From Rhizobium sp. SL86 (GTDB taxonomy: Bacteria > Pseudomonadota > Alphaproteobacteria > Rhizobiales > Rhizobiaceae), in NCBI RefSeq assembly GCF_026672545.1, contig NZ_JAPPRJ010000001.1, positions 1,116,001-1,180,000 of the forward strand: a stretch of 64,000 bases of DNA, written 5' to 3'. Below are positions 25,209 to 58,759 of this stretch, one piece after another. Each line of letters starts with the position of its first letter. The stretch's first letter is position 1. The translations under genes and the position numbers were made by a program. Below the pieces are notes generated by a model. The model was given only the letters and a program-made list of their open reading frames with translations. It ran no database searches and was not told where the DNA came from.

Positions 25209-25524
25209 AATGATGTGGTTCGCGGCGTTTCGCGAACTATCACCATGTCCTCATAACTAGCTGAAATAAAACAAAAAGTCAAGCATTCACTATCGGAGCC
25301 TATCGCCCTGAAGCGATCGGCTCTGACGGTGCGTGCGACGGTATGCGTTTTTCGCCGTCCGCCGGATTTTTGCCCTACCGTCAGGCAAAAAACTGAAGCA
25401 CTCCGTTAGGATCAATACTAACTGGCTGGTATATAACGATTATTCTCATAGATTGACGGTATCGAATTTGACGGTAAAATTGACCTCGAAAAAGGCGTTT
25501 TCGATCGTCAACGAGGCCGTTCCC
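25209..25524. other. guaA-integrase junction, expected attL region
   Basis: 316 nt between guaA and the integrase start. It holds a perfect hairpin GTTCGCG/CGCGAAC at 25218-25237 and is AT-rich afterwards (many A runs), in contrast with both neighbours. The left attachment site is expected at the guaA 3' end. Its partner repeat (attR, probably ending in a copy of the guaA tail) was not found within this window. Confidence 0.5.
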
Positions 25525-26781
25525 ATGCTCACTGACATGGCCATCAAGAGGCTGAAACCAAAGGATAAATTGTACAAGGTGGCTGACCGTGACGGTATGT
25601 ACGTTTCCGTCGCCACGACAGGCCAAATCACCTTCCGGTACGACTACCGTCTGAACGGCCGCCGGGAGACGCTGACGATCGGCCCCTACGGCTCCGATGG
25701 CCTCACGCTCGCCGAAGCGCGCGAACGCTGCATCGCCGCTCGCAAGCTGGTGGCGGAGGGGCTTTCCCCTGCCCACGAGAAGCAGCGTGACAAGCGGCGC
25801 AAGGCCATGGAGCGCAGCTTCGGCGCGGTGAGCGGCATATGGATCAAGGAAGCGCGCATGGCGGAAAGCACCCGCTCGATGCGCAAGGCCATCCTCGATC
25901 GCGATATTCTCCCTGCCTGGAAGAACCGCCTTCTGACCGAGGTGACGCCGGACGATCTGCGCCAGCTCTGTGCCAAGGTGAAGGAGCGCGGCGCGCCGGC
26001 GACGGCCATCCACGCCCGCGACATCGTCAAGCAGATCTTCGCCTTCGCCATCCTGCACGGCGAAAAGGTGCCGAACCCGGCCGACGAGGTCGGGCCGGCC
26101 TCGATCGCGACCTTCCAGCCGAAGGACAGGGCGCTGTCCCCGGCCGAGATCAAGATCATGCTGCAGCAGATCGAGCATGTGCCGACCCTGCCGACCATCC
26201 GCCTCGGCTTGCGTCTGATCCTGCTCACCATGGTGCGGAAGAGCGAACTGCAGGACGCCATCTGGGACGAGGTGGATTTCGAGAACGCCGTCTGGACGAT
26301 CCCGAAGGAGCGTATGAAGCGCTCGAAGGCGCACAACGTCTATCTCTCGCAACAGTCGCTCGACATCCTGATTGCGCTCAAGACCTGCGCCGGCAACTCG
26401 CGCTACCTGCTGCCGTCCCGTTATGACGCCGATGCGCCCATGTCGCGCGCCACCTTCAATCGCGTGACCACGGCCGTCGTGGCGCGAGCGAAGAAGGAGG
26501 GGCTGCCGCTGGAACCGTTCACGGTGCACGACCTGCGCCGGACCGGCTCGACGCTCTTGAACGAGATGGGTTTCAACAGCGACTGGATAGAGAAGTGCCT
26601 CGCCCATGAGGACGGGCGCTCATCGCGCGGCGTCTACAACAAGGCGGAATACGAACCGCAGCGCCGGCATATGCTCCAGGAATGGGCCGACATGATCGAC
26701 GCCTGGGTGAAAGGAGAGAAGCGCGTGCCGACGCTGTTGCCGCCGTCGATACCGTTTATGGGCGCTGAAAACGTGTCTTGA
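25525..26781 (+). CDS. Tyrosine-type site-specific integrase (P4-like)
   Basis: 418-aa recombinase catalysing integration and excision. Layout: N-terminal arm-binding domain (DUF4102-like, LKPKDKLYKVADRDGMYVSV), core-binding domain, catalytic domain. Catalytic residues are visible: Arg in TMVRKSELQDA, HxxR in TVHDLRRTGS, the second His in CLAHEDG and the Tyr in GVYNKAEYE. The start at 25525 gives the normal length, with GAGG 8 nt upstream; the open frame extends a further 64 codons upstream, without family character. It sits directly behind guaA and reads away from it. Confidence 0.93.
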   Translation: MLTDMAIKRLKPKDKLYKVADRDGMYVSVATTGQITFRYDYRLNGRRETLTIGPYGSDGLTLAEARERCIAARKLVAEGLSPAHEKQRDKRRKAMERSFGAVSGIWIKEARMAESTRSMRKAILDRDILPAWKNRLLTEVTPDDLRQLCAKVKERGAPATAIHARDIVKQIFAFAILHGEKVPNPADEVGPASIATFQPKDRALSPAEIKIMLQQIEHVPTLPTIRLGLRLILLTMVRKSELQDAIWDEVDFENAVWTIPKERMKRSKAHNVYLSQQSLDILIALKTCAGNSRYLLPSRYDADAPMSRATFNRVTTAVVARAKKEGLPLEPFTVHDLRRTGSTLLNEMGFNSDWIEKCLAHEDGRSSRGVYNKAEYEPQRRHMLQEWADMIDAWVKGEKRVPTLLPPSIPFMGAENVS

Positions 26782-28301: not shown

Positions 28302-30795
28302 TCCGATCCAGATCGTCCTCAATCCGGACAATTATGAGGAAGCCCGAGAGGCGGGCGGCGGCGGCGGCCGCAAGGACTTCTTTGCTCACCGCGATCGGGA
28401 GTTTGGCGCCCACAAGGCAGCTCTGATCGAGCAGATCGACACTATCTCCGGGGTTCTTTCCGCGCAAGCGCAGGGACCGATCGGCTACGTCAAGGTCATC
28501 CTTAAACGAGATGCTTGGGCCAAGAGCCATCGACCCGTGGGGGCGCTCTTTCGCAGCGATCGGGTACCCGTAGTCGGGGGTGGGGATCTCGGCGTTATGA
28601 TTGTCGAAGGCCGCCCATCGGCTTTGGCGCAGGTGAAAGCCGAAATTGCCAAGGCCGAAACGCAGACCAGAATGCGTTACGACGAGAAAAAGGGGAAAGA
28701 GGTGCCGAACCCCTCGGCGCAAAAGAGCGAGACGGGAGCAATCGAGCGGATCGAACTCTACGGCGCTTCCGACAAGCGCAACTTTTCGGTCGAAGAGGCC
28801 GTTGCTTGGCTCGCCAATCCGATGACGGGAAGCGGGTATCAAGTTGAGTTGTTCGACGTTCTGCCGCCGCGTGCCGAATGGGATCGCCTCGACCCCGCGC
28901 ACAGACGTCTGGTCGAGTCCTTTGTTGCGGGCTTCAACGCCCTTGAACAAAGCTTGTCAGTGGAGCGTCTGCCGAACTGGAGGCAGCGCCTCCCTATGCT
29001 TTCCGTGCGCCTGGACCGAGCCGGAGATGGTGCCGTTCTACGGCTGACGAGCGTATCATCGAAGGAACGCCGGGAGCTCGCGCCCTTTGACCCGAATGTT
29101 CAACACCATAGCCGCTTGCTGGCATTCTTGGACACGCATCCCTTGGTCCGACGGATCGAGTTACCTGGCATCGTGGTGCGCTCTGCTCGCCCGGCAACGC
29201 CGGACCGCATTCGGCCAGCGCAAGCGGTCATGCCCGTTCGTGATAGTCGCAGAACTCATCCAAGGATGGGTATCATCGACGGCGGCATAAGCCCAGCGTT
29301 GGCTGACTGGGTTATCGATCGATGGGACGTGCTGGCCGACGAAGATATGGATCTATCCCATGGCACGTTTATTGGCGGGCTTGCAGTCGCTGGAGCAGGA
29401 ATAAATGGTGCGGAGACTTGCCCCGAACCCGACGGAATGGAGCTGGTTGACGTGGCCGTCTTCCCAAATGAGCAGAAGGCTGGGGCGTTTGCATCTTACT
29501 ATTCGGGTGGCCTCCCGCAGTTCTTCGATGAGATGGATGCGGCTGTCGCAGATGCGCGGGCGCGACACGGCGTGCGTGTTTTCAATATGAGTCTGAACAT
29601 CCTTCAGCCCGCCGCACCCGATCGCTACAGCCCACATGCGGTCCGACTCGACCAGATTGCCGAAGAAAACAATGCCGTCGTGTTCATTTCGGCCGGTAAC
29701 ATTCAGCCGCAAGACCTTCGCCCTGAGTGGCCGGTCGATGCAGCAACTGCCCTTTCCAACCTTGCGCTTGCGCGAAACGATGGACTCCTGACGCCAGCGG
29801 AGAGCGCGAGGAATGTTGCCGTCGCGGCGCTGAATCCTCCGGGGCACAGCGGTTGCTTGCCGTTCGCCCCAGCCCGTTTCAGTCGTCGGGGGCCTGGGCT
29901 TCGGTCCGGTGGAAAACCCGACCTTGCCCACATCGGAGGCGCGGGCACGCAGCACGCGACACTGGGGCACGGACTTTTCTCAATCCTTCCTGATGGAACA
30001 GTAATCGACGGTTGCGGGACCAGCTACGCCTCGCCTTTGATCGCAAAGACGGCAGCAGTCCTCGACCATGCTATCGAGGGCGAGGTTTCGCGTGAGACAC
30101 TCATCGGTTTGCTCGTGCACCACGCTGAGATTCCAGAACCCTTGAGCCAGAAAATGCTGGCGCCGGTGGCACGGCACCTTGTCGGGTTCGGGATGCCGCC
30201 GTCTGCTGAACGTATTCTGGAGACGGGCGATCATTCAATTACCCTGGTCTTCGCCTCGCGTATCCAGCACGGCCAGCAGATCAATTTCCGCTTCCCATGG
30301 CCAGCGTCCTTGGTCGGACCTGGCGGCAAATGCCGAGGGCGGGCGAAGTTGACGCTTGTATCGACGCCGCCGCTGGATGCGCGGTTCGGTTCCGAATTCG
30401 TCCGGGTCAACGTGAACGCCGTCCTGCAGCAGGAGCAGGATGAGGGAAAATGGAAGGGTCGCCTTGATCCGCTCTACCTCCCGTCGTCACGAGAGTCGCC
30501 GGCGGTCGAGGCGGAGCTAATCGAACATGACCTGAAATGGAGCCCCGTAAAGGTCCACGCCAAGACGTTCCCTCAGGGAGTTGGGCCTTCATCGAACTGG
30601 CGGCTGTTTGTTGAATATCTCACCCGCACTGGAGAGGTGATGCCAGAGGGGGGCGTCCCCTTCACGGCGATTTTAACCATCAGCGATCCAGAAGCGGAAA
30701 AGCCCGTTTTCAATGACATGCGGCAAAGCCTTCAGGCGATCGGTACGCAGATCGCTGACATTCGGACGGCCGCACGCATTACGCCGCGCGTTTAG
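28294..30795 (+). CDS. ietS: Subtilisin-like serine protease IetS
   Basis: 833-aa cytoplasmic S8 peptidase without a signal peptide. The catalytic triad is visible: Asp in MGIIDGGIS (about residue 329), His in LSHGTFIGG (about 356) and Ser in CGTSYASP (about 577). A long N-terminal region of about 300 residues of unknown role precedes the peptidase domain, and about 200 residues follow it. The start lies inside ietA (8-nt overlap), so the two are translationally coupled. A partner in an abortive, proteolytic defence or addiction module is the best reading. Confidence 0.85.
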   Translation: MASPIQIVLNPDNYEEAREAGGGGGRKDFFAHRDREFGAHKAALIEQIDTISGVLSAQAQGPIGYVKVILKRDAWAKSHRPVGALFRSDRVPVVGGGDLGVMIVEGRPSALAQVKAEIAKAETQTRMRYDEKKGKEVPNPSAQKSETGAIERIELYGASDKRNFSVEEAVAWLANPMTGSGYQVELFDVLPPRAEWDRLDPAHRRLVESFVAGFNALEQSLSVERLPNWRQRLPMLSVRLDRAGDGAVLRLTSVSSKERRELAPFDPNVQHHSRLLAFLDTHPLVRRIELPGIVVRSARPATPDRIRPAQAVMPVRDSRRTHPRMGIIDGGISPALADWVIDRWDVLADEDMDLSHGTFIGGLAVAGAGINGAETCPEPDGMELVDVAVFPNEQKAGAFASYYSGGLPQFFDEMDAAVADARARHGVRVFNMSLNILQPAAPDRYSPHAVRLDQIAEENNAVVFISAGNIQPQDLRPEWPVDAATALSNLALARNDGLLTPAESARNVAVAALNPPGHSGCLPFAPARFSRRGPGLRSGGKPDLAHIGGAGTQHATLGHGLFSILPDGTVIDGCGTSYASPLIAKTAAVLDHAIEGEVSRETLIGLLVHHAEIPEPLSQKMLAPVARHLVGFGMPPSAERILETGDHSITLVFASRIQHGQQINFRFPWPASLVGPGGKCRGRAKLTLVSTPPLDARFGSEFVRVNVNAVLQQEQDEGKWKGRLDPLYLPSSRESPAVEAELIEHDLKWSPVKVHAKTFPQGVGPSSNWRLFVEYLTRTGEVMPEGGVPFTAILTISDPEAEKPVFNDMRQSLQAIGTQIADIRTAARITPRV

Positions 30796-30895
30796 CGCTG
30801 ATATCGACAATGGAGTGATCAAGAGCACCGAACAATCGGCGATGAACATAAGCTCTCCGGGGTGTAAACTGATGTGCTGGTGACATGGAGGAACA

Positions 30896-31135
30896 ATGGC
30901 AACGATCATTCATCTCGGACCAGACAATCCTATCCCGCCGGAGCGGCATGTCGCCGTTGTTGTCCATCGAGACCACATGGGGATGGAAAAGGGATATTTC
31001 TACGATAGCGCCGAACAGGACACCGGTGGATCAGGGCCATTCGACTGGCGCATGGCCGAAGCAATCGAGCGGGCCGAGCGGTTTGCGATCGACCGGAAGA
31101 TTCCACTCGTCATCGTCCGCGCCAAAAGAAATTGA
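30896..31135 (+). CDS. Small conserved-looking protein downstream of IetAS
   Basis: 79-aa soluble protein, MATIIHLGPDNPIPPERHVA at the start, with no recognised domain. GGAGG lies 5 nt before the ATG, a strong RBS. It is followed 9 nt later by the nuclease-fold gene, so the two are likely co-transcribed. It contains His-rich HRDHMGMEKGYFYDS and a basic C terminus. It may belong with the next gene as part of the defence block; function unknown. Confidence 0.6.
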   Translation: MATIIHLGPDNPIPPERHVAVVVHRDHMGMEKGYFYDSAEQDTGGSGPFDWRMAEAIERAERFAIDRKIPLVIVRAKRN

Positions 31136-31144
31136 GCCTCAGCT

Positions 31145-32083
31145 ATGCCCTCTCGCCTCGTTCAGCGTATTCATTTCGAAGATTTCGGCGGTACCGAGTT
31201 CGAGCGGCTTGTCTTTGCCTATCACGTGCGCGCAGGTTGGACGGATCTTGCTTGGTTCGGTCAGACCGGCAGTGACGAAGGACGCGATATCGTCGGGAGA
31301 GAGCTGATCGAGAGTGGGGGATATAGATCCAGTGTCATTCAGTGCGTCAATCGTAAAACGCTGACACAAAAGAAGGCCGAAGAAGATATGATGCGCGCCA
31401 TTGCAGCATCTCGTGGTAATCTAAAAGCATTCAAATTTGTGGTGGGCGGTACTGTTTCTGCAGCGAGGCGCGATGCGGTCGAAGAGGCGGCGGTCAAGGC
31501 GGGCATAACGTCATTAGCGATATGGTCAGGAGTTGATTTTGAAGAACATCTCCGTTTGATCGGAGAGGATCTCCTCCGGCGTTTCTGCGACGGCGATCCG
31601 TTTCCGGATCGGCCGGACGAACTCTGCCATTTCGCAAGCGATTTTCCCGGCCTGACTGATATTGATGCGTTGGAGCAGATGGCAGTCGTATTCCAACGAC
31701 CAGTCTTTCAGACTTGGTTTCAGGAAGAAAGCTCCCTGCCTGCGTTTCAGACTGCCATCGAAGACACAATTGCCGCGCTCAACACCGGCGTCTGGCGCAC
31801 ACGCGAAGGTGAGACTATCCGCCGGATACCTTCGCTTCATCACTTAAGGAACCCTCAAGTCAAAGCCAAAGTCAGGAAAGCGTCGGAACTTGTCGACAAA
31901 TTGCGCCGGACCTTTATTGCCGGTCTGCGAGACAAAACGATTAGGCCATGCGGCTGTGGCAATCCAAGCTGCCCCACCTTCATGATTGATCGGACCGTGG
32001 CAGCAAGCTTGGACGACATTCGAAAGATGGCTTTGGACGCATTTCGTGAGGCGTACAGCCCCTTTGATGTTCATTTGCAGTGA
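31145..32083 (+). CDS. Mrr-like restriction-endonuclease-fold protein
   Basis: 312-aa protein. The first 150 residues follow the Mrr-type PD-(D/E)xK layout: FERLVFAYH helix, GSDEGRDI with the metal Asp (D48), then VIQCVNRK at 64-71. The usual QxK is here Q66-C-V68, so the Lys is missing at its normal place, with N-R-K just after. Then FKFVVGG and an IWSGVDFEEHL helix as in Mrr. The C terminus has clustered cysteines C269, C271 and C276 (CGCGNPSC). Placed next to IetAS, a defence effector is likely; catalysis is uncertain. Confidence 0.6.
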   Translation: MPSRLVQRIHFEDFGGTEFERLVFAYHVRAGWTDLAWFGQTGSDEGRDIVGRELIESGGYRSSVIQCVNRKTLTQKKAEEDMMRAIAASRGNLKAFKFVVGGTVSAARRDAVEEAAVKAGITSLAIWSGVDFEEHLRLIGEDLLRRFCDGDPFPDRPDELCHFASDFPGLTDIDALEQMAVVFQRPVFQTWFQEESSLPAFQTAIEDTIAALNTGVWRTREGETIRRIPSLHHLRNPQVKAKVRKASELVDKLRRTFIAGLRDKTIRPCGCGNPSCPTFMIDRTVAASLDDIRKMALDAFREAYSPFDVHLQ

Positions 32084-39463: not shown

Positions 39464-40253
39464 ATGCCGAGTACAGATTGGCGCTCGCCGGCCGCTTATG
39501 CACATGCCAAGAGCATTTCTGCCGCCGGCTTTGCCTGGGAGTATCTTCGTCGCGATGAGGATTATCGCCGCGACTTTCATCGCGTGAGGCGATTGCCACG
39601 CCTCGACAGCGATGCGCAGACGGCGTTCTCGGAACGCTGGGGGGTGCGATTTCCCGACAGACCCGACTCTCTCCGCCGACCGGGCTGCGCTATTCTGGAT
39701 GCCGTCGCTGCTGCCTGATGCCTTTGAGCTTCGCCCGTCCGCGTGCGTCGACTCTGATCCCGCCAGCATGACGATCAGCCTGCCGACGTTGCCGGGTCTC
39801 GACGCTCGTGCCACCGAGGATGGGAAGTGGCATGGCCTCTGGCGGTCGGCGGGAGTGGACCATCAGTTCTGGCTCGCAGATCCGCCGTCCGGCACCAAGA
39901 CGGCCTATTTCGTTATGCTGCCGCTCGACGCCTCGCTGGAGCATCGCGCCGAAGCGGTGTCGCGCTTCTGGCGAACGCTGACGGGGCGGCCGATCGGCGA
40001 GCGTCGTCACGCTCTTCCAGCGCAGACCCGAGACCGACACATCCTGATCTTGCGCGCCCTCGACGGTCGCACAGACGGCGCCAGCTATCGAAAGATCGCG
40101 GAAGCCCTGCTTGGATTTCGTGGCAACAAAGCCGATTGGGAAAGCGATCCTCGCAAGAACCAGACGCGCCGCCTCGTTGCTGACGGCACCCACTATGTGC
40201 ATGGCGGATATCGCGATCTGCTGCGCTATCCCGCGCGTCTGCCGCCCCGCTGA
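39464..40253 (+). CDS. fseA: FseA-like excision activator encoded in two frames (probable +1 programmed frameshift)
   Basis: Frame 1 (39464-39718, 84 aa) starts MPSTDWRSPAAYAHAK and has the DUF6499-type domain. Frame 2 is open from 39612 and ends at 40253 with a DUF2285 domain (LILRALDGRTDGASYRKIAE). Reading frame 1 to CCC at 39653-39655, skipping G39656 and continuing in frame 2 gives WGVRFP-TDPTLSADRAALFW, an uninterrupted family-like protein of 262 aa. In ICEMlSymR7A two such ORFs are fused by +1 frameshifting into FseA, the activator of the excisionase gene. If unshifted, frame 2 could start at ATG 39699. A plain indel cannot be excluded. Confidence 0.8.
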
Positions 40254-40408
40254 ACGTTGCCGTTCGATCGTCTTCGTTCGCGCCTCCGGGGGGCCGGAAA
40301 CGCTACCCCCTAATTTCGGCACGCTGCAAGCCGCCGTTCCTCCGCCACGGTTCGCCATGACCCGCTGCCGTCACCGGCAGCCATCCGAACCGCCCCGGAG
40401 GCCCGATC

Positions 40409-40678
40409 ATGCTCGACCCGAAGACGGGATTGCCGCCGCGTTTCCTGCGCACGCCCGACGCGGCGCGATTCCTCGGCATCTCGCTCAGGACGCTGGAGAA
40501 GCACCGCACCTACGGCACCGGCCCGACCTATCGCAAGATCGGCGGCCGCGTGATCTACGCGCTCGAGGACCTGCAGGCCTGGACGGCCATCGGCGCGCGC
40601 AAATCCACCACGGACCAGAATGCCGGCCGGGTCTTTCCGGCGCGTCCTCTGACGCCTGCCGAGCGGGGAGCGCGCTGA
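40409..40678 (+). CDS. rdfS: Excisionase-type HTH protein, RdfS-like
   Basis: 89-aa MerR/excisionase-type winged helix: RFLRTPDAARFLGISLRTLE, then GPTYRKIGGRVIYALEDLQAW. Size and position (after the DUF2285 gene, directly before RepA and ParA) match the recombination directionality factor RdfS of ICEMlSymR7A, which drives excision. The stop abuts the repA ATG. The 155-nt gap upstream should carry the promoter on which FseA acts. The identification is by family and synteny. Confidence 0.7.
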   Translation: MLDPKTGLPPRFLRTPDAARFLGISLRTLEKHRTYGTGPTYRKIGGRVIYALEDLQAWTAIGARKSTTDQNAGRVFPARPLTPAERGAR

Positions 40679-41749
40679 ATGAGCGGCTCCTCTCGACAAG
40701 ACGGCAAGCACGGGAGCGAACGCCAGCGGCTCGATCCCTTCGTGGTCGCCACCGGCGATGCCAGCCCGCGCGATCAGCGCGATCTCATGGAACGGCCGTT
40801 CTTCTCGTTGTCGAAGACGCCGCGCGTCAAGCCGATCCTCTACAAGGCCGCCGATGTCGAGGTGCAGGTGCTGGGGATGCCCGAACACGGCATGGCGACG
40901 ATATGGGACGCCGATGTGCTGATCTGGGCCGCCTCGCAGATCGTCGCGGCCGAGAACCATGGTCTCCGTACCTCGCGCTTCTTTCGCTTCACGCCCTACC
41001 AGCTCCTGCGGGGTGTCGGCCGTCCGACCGGAAACCAGCAGTATCTTCTCCTGAAGGCCTCGCTGGCACGGCTGCAATCGACCGTCATCGCCACGACGAT
41101 TCGGAACGGCGTGCAATGGCGCCGCCGACAATTCTCCTGGATCAACGAATGGGAAGAGATGACGACGCGAGAGGGCCGCGTCGAGGGCATGGAATTTGTC
41201 CTGCCCGAGTGGTTCTACAACGGGGTCGTCGACCGCTCACTGGTGCTGACCATCGACCCGGACTATTTCCGGCTGACCGGCGGTATCGAGCGCTGGCTCT
41301 ATCGCGTCGCGCGCAAGCACGCCGGCCATCAGCGACACGGCTGGCTGTTCGAGATCGCCCATCTCCACGCCAAATCCGGCAGCCTTGCGCGCATCTCCGA
41401 TTTCGCGCTCGATCTGCGCCGGATCGCTCTCCGTCAGCCCTTGCCTGGATATCGCCTGTCGATCGAACGCGAGGGGCGGCGTGAACTGCTCCGCATACGG
41501 CCCGTCCAACAATTCACAGTGCCTGTGGATGAGCCTGTGAACAGCATCGGCAGATCAGGCGCAAAGGGTATCGGCACATCAGGCGCAGGCCTATCGGCAG
41601 ATCGGGCGCACGGACCACAGTTAACGCTCTGGCCTGAAACACGAAATCCGGCCACTAACTTAGACTCTAACAGAGAATCTAACTCTTCTTTGTTGGCGCG
41701 CGGGAAACGCGGCCGTGGTGCCGGTGCCGCCGGAAGGCGGACGCCATGA
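40679..41749 (+). CDS. repA: RepA-type replication initiator
   Basis: 356-aa protein of the alphaproteobacterial plasmid/ICE replication initiator A family: RDLMERPFFSLSKTPRVKPI, YQLLRGVGRPTGNQQYLLLK, GVQWRRRQFSWINEW and a helical WLYRVARKHAG. The N terminus is polar; the last 80 codons contain iteron-like repeats and read as low-complexity. GGGGAG precedes the ATG, and it overlaps parA by 4 nt. Autonomous replication of the excised circle is known for some ICEs, and this gene makes it possible here. Confidence 0.85.
   Translation: MSGSSRQDGKHGSERQRLDPFVVATGDASPRDQRDLMERPFFSLSKTPRVKPILYKAADVEVQVLGMPEHGMATIWDADVLIWAASQIVAAENHGLRTSRFFRFTPYQLLRGVGRPTGNQQYLLLKASLARLQSTVIATTIRNGVQWRRRQFSWINEWEEMTTREGRVEGMEFVLPEWFYNGVVDRSLVLTIDPDYFRLTGGIERWLYRVARKHAGHQRHGWLFEIAHLHAKSGSLARISDFALDLRRIALRQPLPGYRLSIEREGRRELLRIRPVQQFTVPVDEPVNSIGRSGAKGIGTSGAGLSADRAHGPQLTLWPETRNPATNLDSNRESNSSLLARGKRGRGAGAAGRRTP
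41546..41610 (+). repeat. Three iteron-like direct repeats inside the 3' end of repA
   Basis: 18-nt units beginning ATCGGCAGATCAGG at 41546, 41570 and 41593 (one or two mismatches), with periods of 24 and 23 nt, about two helical turns. An AT-rich stretch with TCTAAC repeats (about 41650-41692) follows. This is the layout of an iteron-controlled origin with an unwinding element. Confidence 0.6.
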
Positions 41750-42399
41750 TCGTCGCGCTCCTCAATCAGAAGGGCGGCGTCGGCAAGACGACGCTGGCGC
41801 TGCATCTCGCCGGTGAATGGGCCGGGAGGGGCAAGCGCGTGACCCTCATCGACGCCGATCCGCAGGGTTCGGCGCTGGATTGGTCGCAGCAACGGGCTCG
41901 TGAGAACGGCATCCGGCTGTTCGGCGTCGTCGGCCTGGCGCGCGATACCTTGCACCGGGAAGCGCCGGAGCTGGCGCGCGATGCCGATCACATCGTCATC
42001 GACGGGCCGCCACGCATTGCCGGGCTAATGCGTTCCGCACTGCTGGCCGCCGACCTGGTGCTGATCCCGGTGCAGCCATCGCCGTTCGACGGCTGGGCCT
42101 CGGCCGAGATGCTGGCGCTCGTCGCCGAAGCGCGCATCTACCGGCCGACCTTGATGGCGCGCTTCGTGCTCAACCGCTGTGGCGCACGCACCATCATCGC
42201 TCGCGAGACCGCCGAGACGCTCGCCGATCACGACCCGCCGGTGCTGTCGACAACCATCGGCCAGCGCGTCGTTTTCGCCGATGCCGCACAGTCTGGTCGG
42301 CTCGCCTCCGAAATCGATCCCGACAGTCAGGCCGCGCGAGAGATCGCGGCACTCGCTGCGGAGATCGGACGGCTGGTCACGGGAAGGACATTGCCATGA
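41746..42399 (+). CDS. parA: ParA family ATPase
   Basis: 217-aa Walker-type partition ATPase: deviant Walker A KGGVGKTT at residues 9-16, LIDADPQGSALDW and VIDGPP for the ADP switch and Walker B. Overlaps repA (ATGA-type) and is overlapped by the next small RHH gene, so the three are one operon. Segregation of the excised element is the likely role. Confidence 0.92.
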   Translation: MIVALLNQKGGVGKTTLALHLAGEWAGRGKRVTLIDADPQGSALDWSQQRARENGIRLFGVVGLARDTLHREAPELARDADHIVIDGPPRIAGLMRSALLAADLVLIPVQPSPFDGWASAEMLALVAEARIYRPTLMARFVLNRCGARTIIARETAETLADHDPPVLSTTIGQRVVFADAAQSGRLASEIDPDSQAAREIAALAAEIGRLVTGRTLP

Positions 42400-42647
42400 G
42401 CGCGCACCCGATCCGTCGCCGTTTTGCGGCCCGGCCCGCTGATCCCGAAAGCTGGATCAAGGCAGCCGACGCCCCGCGTACCGACGAGGAGGCCCGCTTC
42501 ACCGCGCGGCTGACCATCGACATCACACCCAACCTGCGCGGCCGCATCAAGATCGTCGCCTTTCAGCGCGGCATCACCGTCGCCGACATGCTGCGCGATC
42601 TGCTCGCGCGCGAATTTCCGCCGACCACCGATGGAGATCGCCCATGA
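42396..42647 (+). CDS. Ribbon-helix-helix-like partner of ParA
   Basis: 83-aa protein with a disordered basic N terminus (HPIRRRFAARPADPESWIKA) and a C-terminal RHH-like segment (FTARLTIDITPNLRGRIKI, then TVADMLRDLLAREFP). ATGA overlaps on both sides with parA and DUF2840. Small DNA-binding partners of ParA often have this build (ParG type), so a centromere-binding role is plausible. Confidence 0.7.
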   Translation: MSAHPIRRRFAARPADPESWIKAADAPRTDEEARFTARLTIDITPNLRGRIKIVAFQRGITVADMLRDLLAREFPPTTDGDRP

Positions 42648-43166
42648 CCGGCGCCACCGCTTCCCGTTCCCATGGCGGTGCCGCACCGCGCACCCAGTCC
42701 GCCGACGCTTTCACACAAGTCGAACTGACGCACATCGAGAAGCGGATCGAGAACTGGATCAGGTTCGGCCACAAGGCGCGCGAACAGGTGCTCGACCGAA
42801 GTCGGCGTGTCTTTTTCTACAGGCCCGGCAGCGTCTTTGCCTTCGTGCGGTGGGCATCGAACGACTTCGGCACGATCACATCGCGCATCGACATCGTGCG
42901 CGCGGTGGCGCCAGGTGAGCCCTTCCAGACGCTGCCTTTCGTGCGTCCCGGCGGCGACATCCTGCTCAGAATCGAGGGCTGGCCCAAGGTCGAGCGCGTC
43001 CTTCAGCACATCGATGCCATCGAGGTGATCGGCATTGATCCGACCGAGGTTGTCGCCCGATCACTGGCGGCACGTCCTCAACCGTTTGACCGTTGGATAC
43101 GAGCCGCGTGCCTACACCGTCGATCAGCATCAGGCGTTTCTATTGCGCCAGAGGGCTGAACCATGA
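42644..43166 (+). pseudogene. DUF2840 gene with a frameshift near its 3' end
   Basis: DUF2840 family, found beside traF on rhizobial ICEs. The first 138 codons are normal (RIENWIRFGHKAREQ, VLDRSRRVFFYRPG, then IDAIEVIGIDPTEVVA). As read, the frame then gives RSLAARPQPF and stops at 43159. One base on, the sequence reads DHWRHVLNRLTVGYEPRAY to a TGA at 43164-43166 that overlaps the traF ATG as ATGA, the spacing typical of this operon. Dropping one C at 43056-43058 restores it. Either a loss of the C terminus or a sequencing slip. Confidence 0.75.
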
Positions 43167-43708
43167 CCCGGTTCGGCTACATCATGGCGACGTACTTCTC
43201 CGTGATGGGCGTTGCCGTCGCATCGTTCATTCCCACGCCGCTGCGCGTCGTCTGGAACGCATCCGCGAGTGTTCCGATCGGCCTCTATGATCTCGCCCCC
43301 ACGCAGAGTCTCGAGGCGGGCGATCTCGTCGCGCTCCTGCCCGACAAGCCGCTCGCCGACTTCATGGTGGAGCGCGGCTATATCGGTCGTGGCGTGCCGC
43401 TTTTGAAGCGTGTCATGGCTCTGCAGGGGCAAGAGGTCTGTCGCACCGGGCTCGCCATCACGGCCGATCATGTGCCGCTCGGTGAAGCGCTCGAACACGA
43501 CCGATTGGGGCGTGCTCTGCCGGTCTGGCAAGGCTGCCGGAAGATCGCACAAGGCGATCTCTTCGTGATGAACCCCGAAGTGCCCGACAGCCTGGATGGC
43601 CGCTACTTCGGCCCGATCCCGGCACGCGCCGTCATCGGCAAGGCGACGCCGATTTACACCGACGAGGAGGGTGATGGCCGCTTCGTCTGGCGTGCTCCGA
43701 CGCGGTGA
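43163..43708 (+). CDS. traF: TraF-like S26 signal peptidase (conjugal pilin maturation)
   Basis: 181-aa membrane-bound peptidase. One N-terminal membrane segment (YFSVMGVAVASFIP) is followed by the nucleophile Ser (S36 in SASVPIGLY) and the general base Lys (K82 in LLKRVMAL). TraF of RP4 and Ti plasmids processes and cyclises the pilin TrbC. GRYFGPIPARAVIGKA near the C terminus is typical. It overlaps the DUF2840 gene in restored form. Confidence 0.9.
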   Translation: MTRFGYIMATYFSVMGVAVASFIPTPLRVVWNASASVPIGLYDLAPTQSLEAGDLVALLPDKPLADFMVERGYIGRGVPLLKRVMALQGQEVCRTGLAITADHVPLGEALEHDRLGRALPVWQGCRKIAQGDLFVMNPEVPDSLDGRYFGPIPARAVIGKATPIYTDEEGDGRFVWRAPTR

Positions 43709-45315: not shown

Positions 45316-47364
45316 ATGAGGGAAGACGACGATCATTTCCGGCCAAAGCCCGGCCGCGTCCGATCCAACGTCGGGAAAGTCGGACAGGCCAAGAGCTTCC
45401 TAAGCAAGGTGCGGAAGGTCACGCGCCAGCAACAAGCAGCCTCTGGCCGAAGCCGATCGGCGAAGAGCGGTGGTTCCGGTCGCGCCACCAAGGGAAAGAG
45501 CATCGTCGCCTCCGGCCGGGGCGTGCAGCGCGGTCGCGGTGCGTCCTTCGTGCGCGCCCGCAACCTGTCGAACGGCTGGAGCCACCGCCAGCCCGGCAGC
45601 CGCCGCGTCGTCGTCAAATCCCGTTCTGTCCGGAGCGCGGGCAAGAGCGGAAAGGCCGCCGCACATCTGCGCTATATCCAGCGCGACGGCACATCGCGCG
45701 ATGGCGAGCGCGGGCAACTCTATTCCACGACGGACGATCGCGCCGACGGCGATGCCTTTCTCAATCGCGGCAAAGACGATCGCCACCAGTTCCGCTTCAT
45801 CGTCTCGCCCGAGGACGCCGCCGATCTTGCCGACCTGACCGGCTACACCCGCGAGCTGATGGGAAGGATCGAAACCGATCTCGGCACGAAGCTCGATTGG
45901 GTCGCGGTCAATCACCACAACACCGGCCATCCCCATGCGCATGTTATCGTCAACGGCCGCGATGCGCTCGGCGACGATCTCGTCATCAATGGCGACTATC
46001 TCGCCAATGGCATTCGTGAGCGGGCGAGCGAACTGGCGACGCTGGAACTCGGCCCCGTCACCGAGATCGAGCAGCGCCGCAAGCTGATGACGGAGATCGA
46101 CCATGACCGCTTGACCCGCATCGACCGGGCGATGATCGCCGAGGCAGAGGACCGCTTGCTTGACCTCCGATATGAGCCGGACGATCTGCACGGCCAGTCC
46201 GATCGGACCTTGCGCTTGCGCCGTCTCGGCAAGCTCGGCGGCATGGGCCTTGCCACCGAACATGCGCCCGGCGTCTGGGAATTGAGCGAGCGGCTGGAGC
46301 CGACGCTGCGTGAGATGGGCGAGCGCGGCGACATCATCCGCACCATGCAGAAGGCGCTCCGGGCCGACGGCGCCGAGCGCGACCCAATGAGTTTTCAGAT
46401 TCACGATGCAGCGCCAGCGACGCCGGTCCTTGGCCGTGTCATCGACAAGCATCTCTACGACGAACTGGGTGAGAACCTGACGCTGGTGGTCGATGGCATC
46501 GACGGACGCACGCACCATGTCTCCGGCATCGACCCGGCGCGCGTCGAGGACGCCCGCATCGGCAGCGTGATCGAGATCGGGCCGTCCGACCGCACTGGCC
46601 GCCCATCCGATCGCGCCATTGCCGGCATGGCAGAAGACGGGATCTATCGGTCGAGCCGCCATCTGGAGCACGCTCGGTTCGAGGGGCGCGTGCCGAACGG
46701 CGACTATGAGGGGTTCGTCGATGCCCATGTCCGCCGACTGGAGGCGTTGCGCCGTGCCGGCATCGCCGAACGGATCGACCGCGATCAGTGGCGCATCCCG
46801 GAAGATTTCGAGGCGCGCGCCGCCGCCCATGATGCGGGCAGCAACGCCCGCGTCAATATCCGCGTCCTCTCTACCTTCGACCTCGAACGCCAGATCGGAT
46901 CGGACGGCGCGACGTGGCTCGACCGACGGCTGGTCGGTGTGGGCGTGTCCGATCTGTCGTCGTCAGGATTTGGCAACCAGGTGCACGAGGCGATGGCGCG
47001 CCGGCGCGAGGCGCTGATCGATCACGGTGACGCTGTCCGTCAATCCGATGGCCACGTCGCCTATCGGCGCAACCTGATCGCCACGCTTCAGGAGCGCGAG
47101 GTTGCCCGTGTCGGCGAGGAGGTGGCAGCGAAGAAGGCCCTGCCGTTCCGGGCCGCCGCCGATGGCGAGACCGTCAGCGGCACCTTCACCGGAGCGGTGC
47201 AGCTATCGAGCGGCAAGTTCGCGATCGTCGAGAAGTCTCACGAGTTCACCCTTGTCCCCTGGCGGCCGGTCATCGACCGCCAGCTTGGTCACGAGGTATC
47301 GGGTATCGTCCGTGGTGGATCGGTGTCGTGGCAATTGGGGCGGCAGAAGGGATTGGAGATCTGA
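45316..47364 (+). CDS. rlxS: RlxS-type relaxase (VirD2-like, DUF3363)
   Basis: 682-aa relaxase that nicks oriT and pilots the strand. The basic N terminus (about 110 residues rich in R, K, S) precedes the relaxase domain. HLRYIQRDG holds a conserved region, and the metal-binding HHNTGHPHAHVIVNG (about residues 200-214) is the histidine triad. The C-terminal half is DUF3363 (LGRVIDKHLYDELGENLTLV onward). The catalytic Tyr was not pinned down by eye. Last gene of the RdfS-to-RlxS run. Confidence 0.92.
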   Translation: MREDDDHFRPKPGRVRSNVGKVGQAKSFLSKVRKVTRQQQAASGRSRSAKSGGSGRATKGKSIVASGRGVQRGRGASFVRARNLSNGWSHRQPGSRRVVVKSRSVRSAGKSGKAAAHLRYIQRDGTSRDGERGQLYSTTDDRADGDAFLNRGKDDRHQFRFIVSPEDAADLADLTGYTRELMGRIETDLGTKLDWVAVNHHNTGHPHAHVIVNGRDALGDDLVINGDYLANGIRERASELATLELGPVTEIEQRRKLMTEIDHDRLTRIDRAMIAEAEDRLLDLRYEPDDLHGQSDRTLRLRRLGKLGGMGLATEHAPGVWELSERLEPTLREMGERGDIIRTMQKALRADGAERDPMSFQIHDAAPATPVLGRVIDKHLYDELGENLTLVVDGIDGRTHHVSGIDPARVEDARIGSVIEIGPSDRTGRPSDRAIAGMAEDGIYRSSRHLEHARFEGRVPNGDYEGFVDAHVRRLEALRRAGIAERIDRDQWRIPEDFEARAAAHDAGSNARVNIRVLSTFDLERQIGSDGATWLDRRLVGVGVSDLSSSGFGNQVHEAMARRREALIDHGDAVRQSDGHVAYRRNLIATLQEREVARVGEEVAAKKALPFRAAADGETVSGTFTGAVQLSSGKFAIVEKSHEFTLVPWRPVIDRQLGHEVSGIVRGGSVSWQLGRQKGLEI

Positions 47365-47394: not shown

Positions 47395-48318
47395 TTATCT
47401 ACCGCGATCCCACGGCGGTTCGGGCAAAAAGCGGTTCACCAGTTCATCGACCACGACGCGCACCTTCGGGCTCATCTGCCTGGTCTGCGGCCATAGGGCG
47501 TGGATCGGAAAGCCTCGCGTCGTCACCTCCGGCAGCACCTGTGCAAGTCGTCCGTCGCGCAAGTGGTCGGCAATCAGCCAGGTCGAGAGGAGCGCGATGC
47601 CTTGGCCAGCGAGGGCCGCGTCACAGATGGCGTCGCTGTGGTTGAACGAGAGCCGTCCGGAGACGGGCTTCGCCACGGGCGCGCCTTTCCCATCCAGGAA
47701 CCACCACGGCAAGGACTGTCCGCCCCGGCCGAAGACGATGCAGGCATGAGCGCCCAGATCATCGAGCGAGGTGGGGCTCCCGTACTTGTCGAGATAATCG
47801 GGGCTGGCGCAGAGCACCGATTGCTGCACACCCAGCCTTCTGGCGACGAGTGTGGAGCTGTCCTCGAGATCGCCGATGCGGATCACGAGGTCGATGCCTT
47901 CGTCGATCGGATCAATGCGCCGATCGGTCAGCGAGACTTCCAGCGACAGGTCCGGATAGTGCTCGCCGATATCGAGAAGCACGGGCAGCACCCAGCGTCG
48001 ACCGAACACCACGGGCAGATCGATCCGCAGTCGCCCGCGTGGCCGCAGGCGATGGGCGTTCAGTGCCGCCTCGGCGTTTTCCAGATCGGCCAGGACGCGC
48101 ACGCAGGTCTCGTAGAAAGATTGGCCTTCGGTCGTCAGCGCGAAGCGACGCGTTGTTCGGTTGAACAATCGAACCCCGAGCCGATCCTCGAGCCGCGCCA
48201 CGCTCTTGGCGATACCGGATTTCGACAGGCCGAGCCTCTCCGCCGCCAGCGTGAATCCGCCCGCGTCGGCGGCCTGGACGAAGGCTGTTATGCCACTGAG
48301 GTGTTCGGTGGAAATCAT
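47395..48318 (-). CDS. LysR-type regulator, divergent from an MFS transporter
   Basis: 307-aa LTTR. N-terminal winged helix ITAFVQAADAGGFTLAAERL, SGIAKSVARLEDRLG, then a periplasmic-binding-type effector domain. It belongs to the AaeR/DsdC-like group that usually controls a neighbouring efflux gene. The divergent MFS gene at 48441 is the likely target; two short palindromes lie between them. It marks the start of a cargo block that interrupts the ICE backbone after the relaxase. Confidence 0.9.
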   Translation of the reverse strand: MISTEHLSGITAFVQAADAGGFTLAAERLGLSKSGIAKSVARLEDRLGVRLFNRTTRRFALTTEGQSFYETCVRVLADLENAEAALNAHRLRPRGRLRIDLPVVFGRRWVLPVLLDIGEHYPDLSLEVSLTDRRIDPIDEGIDLVIRIGDLEDSSTLVARRLGVQQSVLCASPDYLDKYGSPTSLDDLGAHACIVFGRGGQSLPWWFLDGKGAPVAKPVSGRLSFNHSDAICDAALAGQGIALLSTWLIADHLRDGRLAQVLPEVTTRGFPIHALWPQTRQMSPKVRVVVDELVNRFLPEPPWDRGR

Positions 48319-48327
48319 CGCGACCTA

Positions 48328-48368
48328 TTGACGACTATCAGTCAACTCATATTGCCATAAGAGGCAAT
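48328..48368. promoter_or_regulatory. Two operator-like palindromes between LysR and MFS
   Basis: TTGAC-N8-GTCAA at 48328-48345 and ATTGCC-N6-GGCAAT at 48351-48368, in the 122-nt divergent gap. Likely LysR binding sites. Confidence 0.5.
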
Positions 48369-48440
48369 TTATCGCCACTACAGTCGCCAATAAAATGCTC
48401 CGGTTAGGGTCGTCCGGCCCGTATCCCACGGAGCGGCGCC

Positions 48441-49664
48441 ATGCCAGGACCATCACATTCCACCCATAAAGACGAAGGAAGGCAGTCGATCCCGCCGGCT
48501 CTGATCTGGCTTCTGGCGATCGGAGCCGGCGTCGGCGTCGCCAATGTCTATTACATCCAACCGGTGGTTCCGCTGGTACGCGAGACATTCGGCATCGGAT
48601 CGGAACCGGCGAGCCTCGTCCCGGCGGTGAGCCAAGCCGGCTATGCCCTCGGAATGCTGCTGCTGGCCCCGCTCGGCGATCTCATCGACCGCAAGCGGCT
48701 CGTCCTCGCCAAGTCGATCCTGCTCGTGCTTGCGCTGTTGGCGACGGCTCTCGCACCGAATTTTTCCGTGCTTCTCGCCGTCAGCCTCGCCGTCGGACTG
48801 CTCGGCAGCCTCGGCCAGGACTTCGTGCCCATGGCGGCGCAACTCGCGACGGCCGAAGAGCGGGGGCGCACCATCGGGCTTGTGACCACGGGCCTGCTCT
48901 GCGGCATCCTGTTGTCTCGCACCTTGGGGGGTGTCGTCGGCGATCTCTTCGGTTGGCGAGCGATCTACGCGTTGGCCGCCACCATGGTGGCGCTGGTCGG
49001 CGTTGCGGTCTGGCGCTGGTTGCCGCTCCAGCCGGCGACCGCCAACGGTTCCTATGGCGCTCTTTTCCTGAGCCTTGCCACCTTGGTCGAGCGACATGCG
49101 GTGCTGCGCAAGGCACTCCTGACCCAGGGCCTGCTGGCGGCAACCCTTGGTGCCTTCTGGTCGACCCTGGCGCTGATGCTGGCGGAGCCGCCGCTCTATC
49201 TCGGTGCGGGTGCGGCCGGCGCCTTCGGATTGGCCGGCGCCGCCGGGGCCTTCGGCGCCCCTCTGTTCGGACGCCTCGCCGACGCCCGAGGGCCTGCCAT
49301 CGCGATCCGCCTCGGCTGTCTGCTGGTTACTCTTGCCTTCACCCTGATGCTGGCACTTCCGCATTCGATCGCAGCGCTGATCGCGGGAGCGGTGCTGTTC
49401 GACCTCGGCGTCATGGCCGCGCTGGTTTCGCACCAGACCATCGTCACGACGATCGACCCCGCAGCGCGCAGCCGGCTGAACGGCTTACTGATGACCGCTG
49501 CCATGATTGGCATGGCGATCGGTGCGCTCGCCGGCGGCTGGGCCTGGAGCCGCTACGGCTGGACCGGCGTGTGCCTCACAGGCGTGATTGCCGGTTTCGC
49601 CGCGCTGCTGCGCTCCCTTCTTCCGCCATCCGTTCCCCTCGCTGCAAAGGAGTTCGCCCGATGA
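48441..49664 (+). CDS. MFS transporter (DHA1-type, 12 TM)
   Basis: 407-aa major facilitator, probably drug or metabolite efflux. PLGDLIDRKRLVLAKS carries the loop 2-3 signature (GDxxDRK), and GRLADARGPAIAIRLG the mirrored one in the second half. About 12 hydrophobic segments. The stop overlaps the EthD-domain gene by ATGA, so transporter and enzyme are translationally coupled, which suggests that they handle the same compound. Confidence 0.88.
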   Translation: MPGPSHSTHKDEGRQSIPPALIWLLAIGAGVGVANVYYIQPVVPLVRETFGIGSEPASLVPAVSQAGYALGMLLLAPLGDLIDRKRLVLAKSILLVLALLATALAPNFSVLLAVSLAVGLLGSLGQDFVPMAAQLATAEERGRTIGLVTTGLLCGILLSRTLGGVVGDLFGWRAIYALAATMVALVGVAVWRWLPLQPATANGSYGALFLSLATLVERHAVLRKALLTQGLLAATLGAFWSTLALMLAEPPLYLGAGAAGAFGLAGAAGAFGAPLFGRLADARGPAIAIRLGCLLVTLAFTLMLALPHSIAALIAGAVLFDLGVMAALVSHQTIVTTIDPAARSRLNGLLMTAAMIGMAIGALAGGWAWSRYGWTGVCLTGVIAGFAALLRSLLPPSVPLAAKEFAR

Positions 49665-50584
49665 CCACCTCTATCGCACCGTCCACATCAACCGAGCCCG
49701 ACGCTCGAACCGCTCCGCTGACGGTGCTGTTCTCGTTCTTGTTGCGCGCCGATCCGGCCGCCAACGCATCCGAAACCGACCCCAATCTCAGCTTCGAAAC
49801 ATGGGGGGACTATTGGCGCAAGGTGCATGGCCCGCGCTTCCTCCATCCCGACGAGGCGGACGATCGCACGACGATCAGTCGCCTGCTGCGTTACGATCAG
49901 ATTCACCGCGTGGCGTCGGGACCGACGAGTTTGAACCCGCCGCCTTACCGGCCACCGCTCGACGCGGACGGTCGCCTGTTCGAGACCATCGTCGGTCACG
50001 TCGAGCCCTACCGACGTCCGCAGTGGGACGGGGTCGCGTATCTCAACTTCGCGGGGCTCGACGATCTCGGCGCGGTTCTCGGTGCCGAGCGTGTTCGTCG
50101 CAAGATCCTTCCCGAGGATCAGGCCATCTTCCGGGATCTCGGGCCGGTACTGGCCCGCCAGTTCATCATCATGCCGAACACGGCTGGTGACGACTCGATC
50201 ATCCTGATCAAGACGCACATTCGGCGCGATGATCTCGACCGCGAGAGGTTCCAGCGCCGCTGGCTGCACGATCATGCCGAGTTGGTGGTCGGCCAGGCCG
50301 ATACGCAGCGTCTTGTGAAGCGTTACGTCCAGCTTCACAACATCGGCCCCGTCACAGCGGGCGCGCCTTTCTTCCATCCCGTAGCCAGCCGGATCGATGG
50401 CGTGACGCTCATGGCCTTCGCCTCGATGAAGGATGTCGAGAGCTTCCTGCTGTCCGACGGCTACGCCGTGATCGAGGAGGCGGAACGATCCATCGCGATC
50501 GTCGAGGCGGGCGAGTATTGGACTGGCCTGACCTTCACCGTGGTCGATCAGCACGCGCCGGAACAGGCCTCGGCAACGTCATGA
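49661..50584 (+). CDS. EthD domain protein
   Basis: 307-aa protein of the EthD/dimeric alpha-beta barrel type, apparently two barrels: the first around TWGDYWRKVHGPRFLHPDE, the second around DLDRERFQRRWLHDHAELVVGQ. EthD domains occur in ether degradation and in polyketide/aromatic modification. The coupling with the MFS gene is by a 4-nt overlap. Substrate unknown. Confidence 0.75.
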   Translation: MTTSIAPSTSTEPDARTAPLTVLFSFLLRADPAANASETDPNLSFETWGDYWRKVHGPRFLHPDEADDRTTISRLLRYDQIHRVASGPTSLNPPPYRPPLDADGRLFETIVGHVEPYRRPQWDGVAYLNFAGLDDLGAVLGAERVRRKILPEDQAIFRDLGPVLARQFIIMPNTAGDDSIILIKTHIRRDDLDRERFQRRWLHDHAELVVGQADTQRLVKRYVQLHNIGPVTAGAPFFHPVASRIDGVTLMAFASMKDVESFLLSDGYAVIEEAERSIAIVEAGEYWTGLTFTVVDQHAPEQASATS

Positions 50585-50643
50585 GGGGGCCGGCGACGCT
50601 GTCCGACAAACGTAGCCGGCTGCGGGCGGTTGTCCCGCGCCCG

Positions 50644-51513: not shown

Positions 51514-51528
51514 CCAGATTTGTTGTCT

Positions 51529-51541
51529 CTGAAATATTCAG
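51529..51541. promoter_or_regulatory. LysR-box-like palindrome
   Basis: CTGAA-ATA-TTCAG, 13 nt, 16 nt upstream of the LysR start in the divergent gap to the MFS gene. Confidence 0.45.
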
Positions 51542-53211: not shown

Positions 53212-53250
53212 GGTCCGAGCCCGTAAGCCGTCCCGCCTTCAGGTCTTGCT

Positions 53251-54848: not shown

Positions 54849-54916
54849 CGTGCAAGTTCGGCTTCGACCCGTTGATCGGAGGGCGGTCGGTGGTCGCGGC
54901 GCGCGGCAGAGAAGAT

Positions 54917-57083: not shown

Positions 57084-58046
57084 ATGCGGCGACGAGCGCA
57101 CAATGGCCAGGAGGTTGTTGATCAACAGAATGCGCTGTTGAGAGGCCGCATCCCGCTCGTGGCACTGATCCAGACGTTGTCCGTTGCCGAGTATCTGAAT
57201 TTTCGCCACGCCGCGAATGCTCTCGGCGTCAGCCAGTCGAGCGTGAGCACCAGGATCAAGACGCTGGAAGAGGATCTCGGTGTTGTTCTATTCGAGCGCC
57301 GCCACCGTGGGGTCCGCCTGACCGACGCCGGCCGCAATTTCATCACGGAAGTTGCCGCGGGGATCGGCCATCTCGATCTTGCGATCAAGACAGCAGGGGC
57401 GGTTCTGAACGGCGCGATTGGTCATCTGTCGATCGGCCTCCTGTCTTCGATCGGTTCGGGGTTCCTGGCCGATCTGCGCCGCCGGTATCGCGACGAGCAT
57501 CCGGAGATCGAACTCGACATCTTCGAGGGGCGTTCGGACGAGATCATACGTCAGGTCCGCGAAGCCAAGCTCGACATCGCCTTCGTGGTTGGTGCCGTAG
57601 AAGTGCCCGACTGCCATTCACGGCAGCTCTGGTCCGAAGCCGTGATAGCCGTGCTACCGCAGGGCCATTCATTGGCGAGTGCGGACCATCTCATGTGGGA
57701 AGACCTCGCCGCAGACACCTTCCTTGTCCGGCAAAGCGGCGCCGGTCCCCAAGTCCTGGACCATATCGTTCGCAGACTCGTCGAGCGAGAGAAGTCGCCC
57801 CGCATTCGTCGGTGCGATGTCGGTCGAGACACGCTGATGCACATGGTTGCAGATGGCGAGGGGATCACGCTGACGAGCGAGGCCGCGTCGCACGTCCCGT
57901 TTCCCGGCGTCCTTTTTCGACCTATCGCCGATGAGCCGGACCGGGCCAGATTCAGCGCGGTTTGGTCGCCGCATAATCGCGGTCCGGCGCTCAGGCATCT
58001 GCTCGATCTTGCAACCGAGATGAGCAAATCAGCGCAATTTGGCTGA
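57084..58046 (+). CDS. LysR-type regulator
   Basis: 320-aa LTTR. HTH: TLSVAEYLNFRHAANALGVS, QSSVSTRIKTLEEDLGVVLF; effector domain: GHLSIGLLSSIGSGFLADLR. The start may be at MRRRAHNG or later, since about 25 residues before the HTH are not family-like. Convergent with the XRE gene, whose stop region it overlaps by 18 nt. Fourth LysR and the last gene of the cargo block. Confidence 0.88.
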   Translation: MRRRAHNGQEVVDQQNALLRGRIPLVALIQTLSVAEYLNFRHAANALGVSQSSVSTRIKTLEEDLGVVLFERRHRGVRLTDAGRNFITEVAAGIGHLDLAIKTAGAVLNGAIGHLSIGLLSSIGSGFLADLRRRYRDEHPEIELDIFEGRSDEIIRQVREAKLDIAFVVGAVEVPDCHSRQLWSEAVIAVLPQGHSLASADHLMWEDLAADTFLVRQSGAGPQVLDHIVRRLVEREKSPRIRRCDVGRDTLMHMVADGEGITLTSEAASHVPFPGVLFRPIADEPDRARFSAVWSPHNRGPALRHLLDLATEMSKSAQFG

Positions 58047-58250
58047 TTCCTTCAGAAGTTCGCCCGGTTCAATTCCCAGCGCCTCCGCAATCTGCCCAAG
58101 AACCGTGACGCTCGCGGAAACGTCGGCGCGCTCGATCGCGCCGATATAGCGCGCGCTCAGGCCGGACTGATCGGCCAGCTCTTCCTGCGTCATTTGCTTG
58201 TCATGGCGCAGCCGACGCAGATTGACCGCCATAACCTCCTTGAGATCCAT
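58029..58250 (-). CDS. qseC: XRE-family regulator, QseC-like
   Basis: 73-aa Cro/C1-type repressor: NLRRLRHDKQMTQEELADQS, GLSARYIGAIERADVSAS, VLGQIAEALGIEPGELL. It begins 20 nt from a 33-bp perfect palindrome and is divergent from a DUF2285 gene. The same pair in ICEMlSymR7A is QseC (controller) and QseM (antiactivator of FseA and TraR). Assignment by synteny and domain, not by alignment. Confidence 0.7.
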   Translation of the reverse strand: MDLKEVMAVNLRRLRHDKQMTQEELADQSGLSARYIGAIERADVSASVTVLGQIAEALGIEPGELLKESAKLR

Positions 58251-58459: not shown

Positions 58460-58759
58460 ATGCGGATACGCCCCGAACTCGATCCCGATGTCGACGATCT
58501 CGCTCCCAGCGGGCCAGAGATCACGGTCTACGACGAACGACACTTCGTCACGTATCTGCGACTGCTCGATGCGGAGACGGATGGGGCGGACTGGACCGAA
58601 GTGGCTCGTATCGTGCTGCATCGTGATCCCGGGACTGAAGGGGATCGCTCGCGCCTCTGCTGGCAAAGCCATCTCAATCGTGCTCGCTGGATAACGAAGA
58701 CCGGCTATCGCAAGATACTGGAACAGGCGGCGACCGAGGCGCGATCAGCGCGGCACTGA
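58460..58759 (+). CDS. qseM: DUF2285 protein, QseM-like antiactivator
   Basis: 99-aa protein consisting almost only of a DUF2285 domain: HFVTYLRLLDAETDGADWTE, VARIVLHRDPG, then HLNRARWITKTGYRKIL. In ICEMlSymR7A the DUF2285 protein QseM binds and blocks FseA (which also has DUF2285) and TraR. Here it sits beside the XRE gene and operator, and the FseA-like protein carries the same domain, so a role as its inhibitor is a sound inference. AAGGAGGG lies upstream of the ATG. Confidence 0.75.
   Translation: MRIRPELDPDVDDLAPSGPEITVYDERHFVTYLRLLDAETDGADWTEVARIVLHRDPGTEGDRSRLCWQSHLNRARWITKTGYRKILEQAATEARSARH

Follow-up and report, generated by a model that had tools for sequence, protein, structure and literature searches.

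The fseA-like gene and the likely mobile element around it

The window, i.e., the whole 64,000-nucleotide stretch of Rhizobium sp. SL86 DNA that was analysed, holds two overlapping forward-strand frames. Frame 1 runs from an ATG at 39464, preceded by GAGGTGA as read by eye, through 84 codons to a stop codon at 39716-39718. Frame 2 stands in a +1 relation to frame 1, is open from before its ATG at 39612 and ends at a stop codon at 40251-40253. The features of the locus and its surroundings were assigned as follows.

23628-25208: guaA, neighbour of the integrase
25333..26781, forward: tyrosine integrase beside the guaA 3' end, likely the left end of the element (family match)
39464..39718, forward: fseA 5' half, DUF6499 (PF20109), 84 codons, giving residues 1-63 of the predicted fusion (ORF and Pfam)
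39612..40253, forward: fseA 3' half, DUF2285 (PF10074, RovC-type DNA-binding), of which the fusion would use 39654-40250 (ORF and Pfam)
39638..39653, forward: predicted frameshift signal TGG GGG GTG CGA TTT C (split-gene comparison)
39650..39653, forward: predicted +1 slip site UUU_C, P-site tRNA-Phe moving from UUU to UUC, with CCG at 39654 as the next codon of the new frame (split-junction comparison)
40291..40322, forward: FseA-box-like inverted repeat GGGCCG-N20-CGGCAC (alignment; layout after PMC10359603, excerpt)
40409..40678, forward: rdfS-like excisionase gene; RdfS (8dgl), E 3.3e-9, was the sole solved relative found (structure-database match)
40679..43708, forward: after rdfS, replication initiator A, ParA-like protein, a small ORF, DUF2840 and TraF-type signal peptidase (family matches)
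45316..47364, forward: RlxS-like relaxase (NF041267), 656.6 bits, below the cut-off of 850 (NCBIfam model)
58029..58250, reverse: small HTH_3 protein, divergent from the lone DUF2285 gene and QseC-like by position only (family match and position)
58460..58759, forward: lone DUF2285 protein, candidate antiactivator, narrowly missing the Pfam cut-off of 26.4 with 25.4 bits (Pfam and QseM match)

Frame 1 matched DUF6499 with 80 bits (cut-off 23.8) and frame 2 matched DUF2285 with 105.6 bits (cut-off 26.4). The domain make-up of the FseA family, i.e., an N-terminal DUF6499 and a C-terminal DUF2285, was found with both scores above cut-off, and the earlier note's reading of the two frames as halves of an FseA-like gene holds. 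AWEYLRRD in the translated N half corresponds to the AWEFLRRN-like motif by which the family is recognized (PMC10359603, excerpt). In a single-sequence search the C half matched RovC (6xz5) at E 0.78 only, and neither half was assigned to any NCBIfam family.

In frame 1 the junction reads TGG GGG GTG CGA TTT CCC GAC, and the +1 frame goes on with P-T-D-P-T-L. Whether the +1 step is taken at TTT-C or CCC-G, the fusion is identical, ...WGVRF-PTDPTLSADRAALFW..., predicted from the coordinates as 63 + 199 codons, i.e., 262 aa. The same note's claim that the joining costs no conserved residue is supported.

The stretch beside guaA with its integrase is likely an integrative element. Judged by homology, it carries a module of the ICEMlSymR7A type, i.e., RdfS-like, QseM-like with a divergent HTH gene, and RlxS-like genes. 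A transglycosylase domain is encoded between the TraF-type peptidase and the RlxS-like relaxase. For the protein of 58460-58759, the only solved relative found by sequence was QseM (7uqt), E 8.1e-18. QseC of R7A is an HTH protein whose gene adjoins qseM (PMC8627217, excerpt).

No LuxR or LuxI family gene, and so no element-borne TraR/TraI quorum sensing, was found in C1 1141-1207 kb at E <= 0.001. At the same threshold, LuxR-type genes were found elsewhere in the genome at C1 626 kb, C1 1759 kb, C2 and C8, and LuxI genes on C5, C6 and C7. An att repeat was searched by comparing 25100-25340 with 27000 to 124000 in window-extended coordinates, and no exact repeat of at least 12 bases was found. 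When up to three mismatches were allowed, three places matched the guaA end, the best at 90854 with two mismatches. When 25100-25335 was searched as DNA against the complete genome of the strain itself, the self-match was the sole match.

Cargo genes for LysR regulators, MFS transporters, a glutathione transferase and a short-chain dehydrogenase lie between the relaxase and the QseM-like gene (47395-58046). Just after the integrase, at 27096-32083, genes for an AAA ATPase, a subtilase and an Mrr-like nuclease with lower GC3 are possibly a defence cassette.

The repeat between fseA and the rdfS-like gene can also be read as the hexamers GCCGGA-N16-TTCGGC at 40293-40320. The published FseA box consists of two inverted hexamers separated by 15-16 bp, the central bases being conserved, and lies in its logo 62-67 from the start codon (PMC10359603, excerpt); the window repeat lies farther. 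The form G[GT][AG][CT]CG-N20-CGGCA[CT], written after viewing the alignment it describes, was present, at -114 to -125, upstream of 24 of the 31 rdfS-like genes compared, and missing in 7 of these regions. Taken alone, the repeat in the window is not significant, shuffles attaining its score in 23%. Its two-mismatch matches in the window numbered 16, against 9.02 expected.

Split relatives and the probable slip codon

Of the 397 genomes from the same order that were searched with the DUF2285 half, 81 gave matches, the own genome counted. Six named loci from one scan of genome contigs were added, together with plasmid records and fetched stretches, of which the plasmid records gave 66 matches to the C half, all below 60% identity. 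All sources together made 123 loci, which were profiled with N-half and C-half HMMs; the profile seeds excluded L010 and matches shorter than 50 aa. The +1 relation proposed for the window was confirmed there and recurs, more often than chance could explain, in 117 of the 123 loci. The remainder were two single-frame loci (L092, L118), three without an N half (L002, L004, L085) and one with a frame difference of 2 (L045). The last comes from a further lesion in the C half; L045 is the same place as L120, which was counted as +1.

The 118 two-ORF loci gave 112 distinct 63-base junctions from many genera. Codons were counted in the 100 of 114 non-duplicate paired loci in which the N profile match reached the junction. 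The other 14 were 12 split loci, read one by one, and the two single-frame ones. The junctions of L003 (GCC TTT CGC) and L115 (TTC TTT CAC) were read directly, because a motif search had misplaced both. Among a further 30 loci, 13 repeated earlier places, the window included, eight were newly split and nine were newly found single-frame or unassignable.

Two further DUF2285 genes were seen in the same genome. L003 (contig C9) is another split fseA-like gene; downstream of it lie an rdfS-like HTH gene and an ORF that by eye looks like a replication initiator. For L002 (contig C5) the DUF6499 half was not found, and an ORF that by eye resembles a transposase (2252-2869) stands close to the place expected for the N half.

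Every one of the 112 distinct split junctions in the main survey has TTT as the junction codon. The base after it was always a pyrimidine, C in 108 junctions and T in 4 (C 97 and T 3 in the 100 profile-placed loci, C 11 and T 1 in the 12 loci read by hand). The following 0-frame codon was CCC in 63 junctions, CGC in 35, CGT in 4 and another in 10, which makes TTT CCC the most frequent form. For a P-site tRNA-Phe to re-pair one base further on, with UUC or UUU, the site must read TTT-Y. The eight newly split loci comprised seven with TTT-Y and one with TGT-C (L140). This locus came from the DUF6499 search, looks split and reads CGG TGT CGC in place of CGA TTT Y, with W-R-L-R-C for W-G-L-R-F; it is an exception to the TTT rule and may be a decayed gene. 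In L119 the junction is TTT TGA, with a stop directly after the slip codon, a layout reminiscent of the prfB arrangement.

On these counts, the window halves are very probably one FseA-type activator gene, joined by +1 slippage at UUU_C (39650-39653) and not at CCC_G. The earlier note had placed the slip at CCC_G (39653-39656), with tRNA-Pro moving from CCC to CCG. That position would produce an identical fusion, +1 shifting at CCC before UGA is known (PMC5009743, excerpt), and CCC does follow TTT in the 63 junctions. Slippage there is possible in at most those 63, since 49 of the 112 lack CCC (35 CGC, 4 CGT, 10 others) and all 49 keep TTT-Y; in the window, moreover, no stop codon follows CCC. 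The CCC_G position was rejected on this distribution and is now improbable. The suggestion that TTT CCC G is a new variant of the switch also falls, because by comparison of junctions TTT CCC is the usual site of the known FseA switch; the conserved +1 site of the family is present at the window locus. From UUU to UUC is also the step that tRNA-Phe reportedly takes in the conserved msi172 motif, in the work of Ramsay in 2015. The UUU_C reading agrees with the general behaviour of UUU_Ynn, which in bacteria is especially prone to +1 shifts even when no stop follows on its 3' side (PMC5009743, excerpt).

Codon choice before the predicted slip site

The commonest form of the signal in split genes is TGG GGG TTG CGA TTT C. 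Codon enrichment in the 100 loci, which takes no account of shared descent, was seen for TTT (100/100 Phe, background 0.291), CGA (65/73 Arg, background 0.109), GGG (77/100 Gly, background 0.141) and TTG (60/88 Leu, background 0.124). Among 42 representatives of 60%-identity clusters, the counts were TTT 42/42, CGA 26/29, GGG 32/42 and TTG 25/36. Unlike the junction Arg, the conserved Arg residues of the LRR motif are mostly encoded by CGC. On either side beyond these codons, no comparable codon preference could be made out by eye in the 100 loci. In the window the spacing from the Shine-Dalgarno (SD)-like stretch to UUU is about 6 nt, more than the 3 nt of prfB, a point against the proposed slippage.

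Downstream RNA structure was not detected in 58-base stretches of the 42 representatives (mean z +0.41, mononucleotide shuffles). The upstream 57 bases gave a mean z of -0.60 (sd 1.26) in the same set and with the same shuffles. The 0-frame stop lies from 6 to more than 600 bases beyond the slip site across loci.

Single-frame relatives gave the comparison for these codons. L092 and L118, from the DUF2285-half search, are 30% and 29% identical and thus distant; the others come from a phylum-wide search. In total 25 loci were counted as single-frame, four of them (L147, L158, L163, L173) with a C-half match of E 0.06 or weaker, and L155 and L176 could not be assigned as split or single-frame. 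At the same peptide the single-frame relatives use CGA for 0 of 10 Arg and GGG for 6 of 25 Gly. They use ordinary codons there, so that on this comparison the choice of CGA and GGG follows splitting and not the peptide. Of the over-used codons CGA differs most between split and single-frame genes and TTG least, the latter being frequent in single-frame relatives too (8/24 Leu, against 0.14 elsewhere in them). Three of the 25 (L118, L166, L171) carry TTT CCY in frame with no need of a shift, so TTT CC alone is no proof of shifting.

The two halves could instead be separate proteins that are made from independent starts and cooperate unfused. This is stated for rihF1b/rihF1a of Azorhizobium, which are described with individual start and end codons and no programmed frameshifting (PMC9601964, excerpt), and frame 2 of the window does have its ATG at 39612. 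Separate synthesis would leave the invariant TTT-Y and the codon bias up to it unexplained. The upstream opening of frame 2 is not conserved, reaching 5 to 635 bases in most loci, and L028 has a stop inside the C frame. Independent halves are improbable. The Azorhizobium claim of no frameshift, as given in the excerpt of PMC9601964, deserves a re-check in view of the TTT-Y rule.

RNA polymerase slippage on the six-G run of the window (39639-39644) would also reach frame 2, by transcripts one base short. The product would then read W-G-C-D-F in place of W-G-V-R-F. In single-frame relatives, by contrast, W-G-L-x is retained in the frame of the C half. GGT, GGC or GGA stands at the Gly codon in 23 of the 100 split genes, and an invariant TTT would be unneeded. 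Polymerase slippage is disfavoured on these grounds and is very improbable.

A random indel or sequencing error in a normally one-frame gene, for which single-frame homologues in distant groups could speak, is rejected as next to impossible because the +1 relation recurs at 112 distinct junctions in many genera and all 38 loci with both halves in the first comparison set are split. Close one-frame homologues with one base less, which had been set beforehand as the refutation of a programmed shift, were looked for and not found; the single-frame relatives are distant.

A predicted excision switch and known systems

Programmed slippage at UUU_C would proceed as follows. The peptidyl-tRNA-Phe would leave UUU and re-pair with UUC one base on, likely helped by the G-rich SD-like stretch and by the CGA codon, then in the E site. 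A minority of ribosomes would make the 262-aa activator, and the rest would stop at 39716 and release the 84-aa DUF6499 protein. Bound to the repeat at 40291-40322, the FseA-type activator would switch on rdfS together with the transfer genes, and the QseM-like protein would attach to DUF6499 and so hold the activator in check. Two-hybrid data from R7A indicate QseM-DUF6499 binding, QseM did not inhibit tagged FseA in vitro, and in R7A TraR drives fseA (PMC10359603, excerpt). Excision of the guaA-borne element would then require two uncommon events, i.e., frameshifting and low QseM. The earlier note's view that frameshifting restricts excision to rare cells comes from ICEMlSymR7A and may apply here by analogy.

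It is tentatively proposed, at somewhat less than even confidence, that UGG GGG UUG CGA UUU Y is a 16-base +1 signal in which tRNA-Phe is loosened by the SD-like G run and by a CGA codon, read by inosine, as it leaves the E site. Such a signal would need no 3' structure or stop and would form its own class of stimulator. Under the same tentative proposal, excision of this LuxR/LuxI-less element would be held back mainly by frameshifting and the QseM-like antiactivator. The GGG-UUG-CGA context was not met in the passages searched; it may or may not already be in print.

With this analysis, a further integrated element comes under the known FseA switch, and the most likely slip position is revised. 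Comparing split with single-frame genes yields GGG-UUG-CGA-UUU-Y as a testable cis signal for bacterial +1 frameshifting. A simple annotation rule is also gained for FseA-type regulators, which are often mis-annotated.

The window fseA belongs to the already known FseA family and switch. In that family 4709 homologues have been counted, about 61% of them split with a conserved +1 frameshifting site (PMC10359603, excerpt). FseA (Msi172-Msi171) of ICEMlSymR7A from Mesorhizobium likewise has DUF6499 and DUF2285 in overlapping frames in +1 relation; the comparison was made apart from the R7A DNA itself. The likeness extends to rdfS-, traF- and rlxS-type genes and a QseM-like protein, and perhaps to a box-like repeat before rdfS. 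Unlike ICEMlSymR7A, the window element has fseA directly upstream of rdfS, replication and partition genes after rdfS, an integrase beside guaA, and no LuxR/LuxI family match.

Other DUF6499/DUF2285 genes annotated as split, with a TTT C junction and a downstream HTH protein and replication initiator A, are found on the alphaproteobacterial plasmids pKvSKV1 of Ketogulonicigenium vulgare and pMLb of M. japonicum. Unlike the window gene, these are plasmid-borne. The lone DUF2285 gene of K. vulgare adjoins fseA, whereas in the window it lies about 18 kb away.

Among other +1 frameshifts, prfB (RF2) has a G-rich SD-like stretch upstream of its slip codon, as the window does. There, the site is CUU_UGA with a stop, and the SD-like stretch is spaced 3 nt from it, whereas the window has UUU_CCC, about 6 nt and no stop. 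The UUU_C sites of YopN-TyeA and influenza PA-X (UCC_UUU_CGU) lie in other genes with other upstream codons, but share with the window a UUU followed by a pyrimidine and need no stop (PMC5009743, excerpt).
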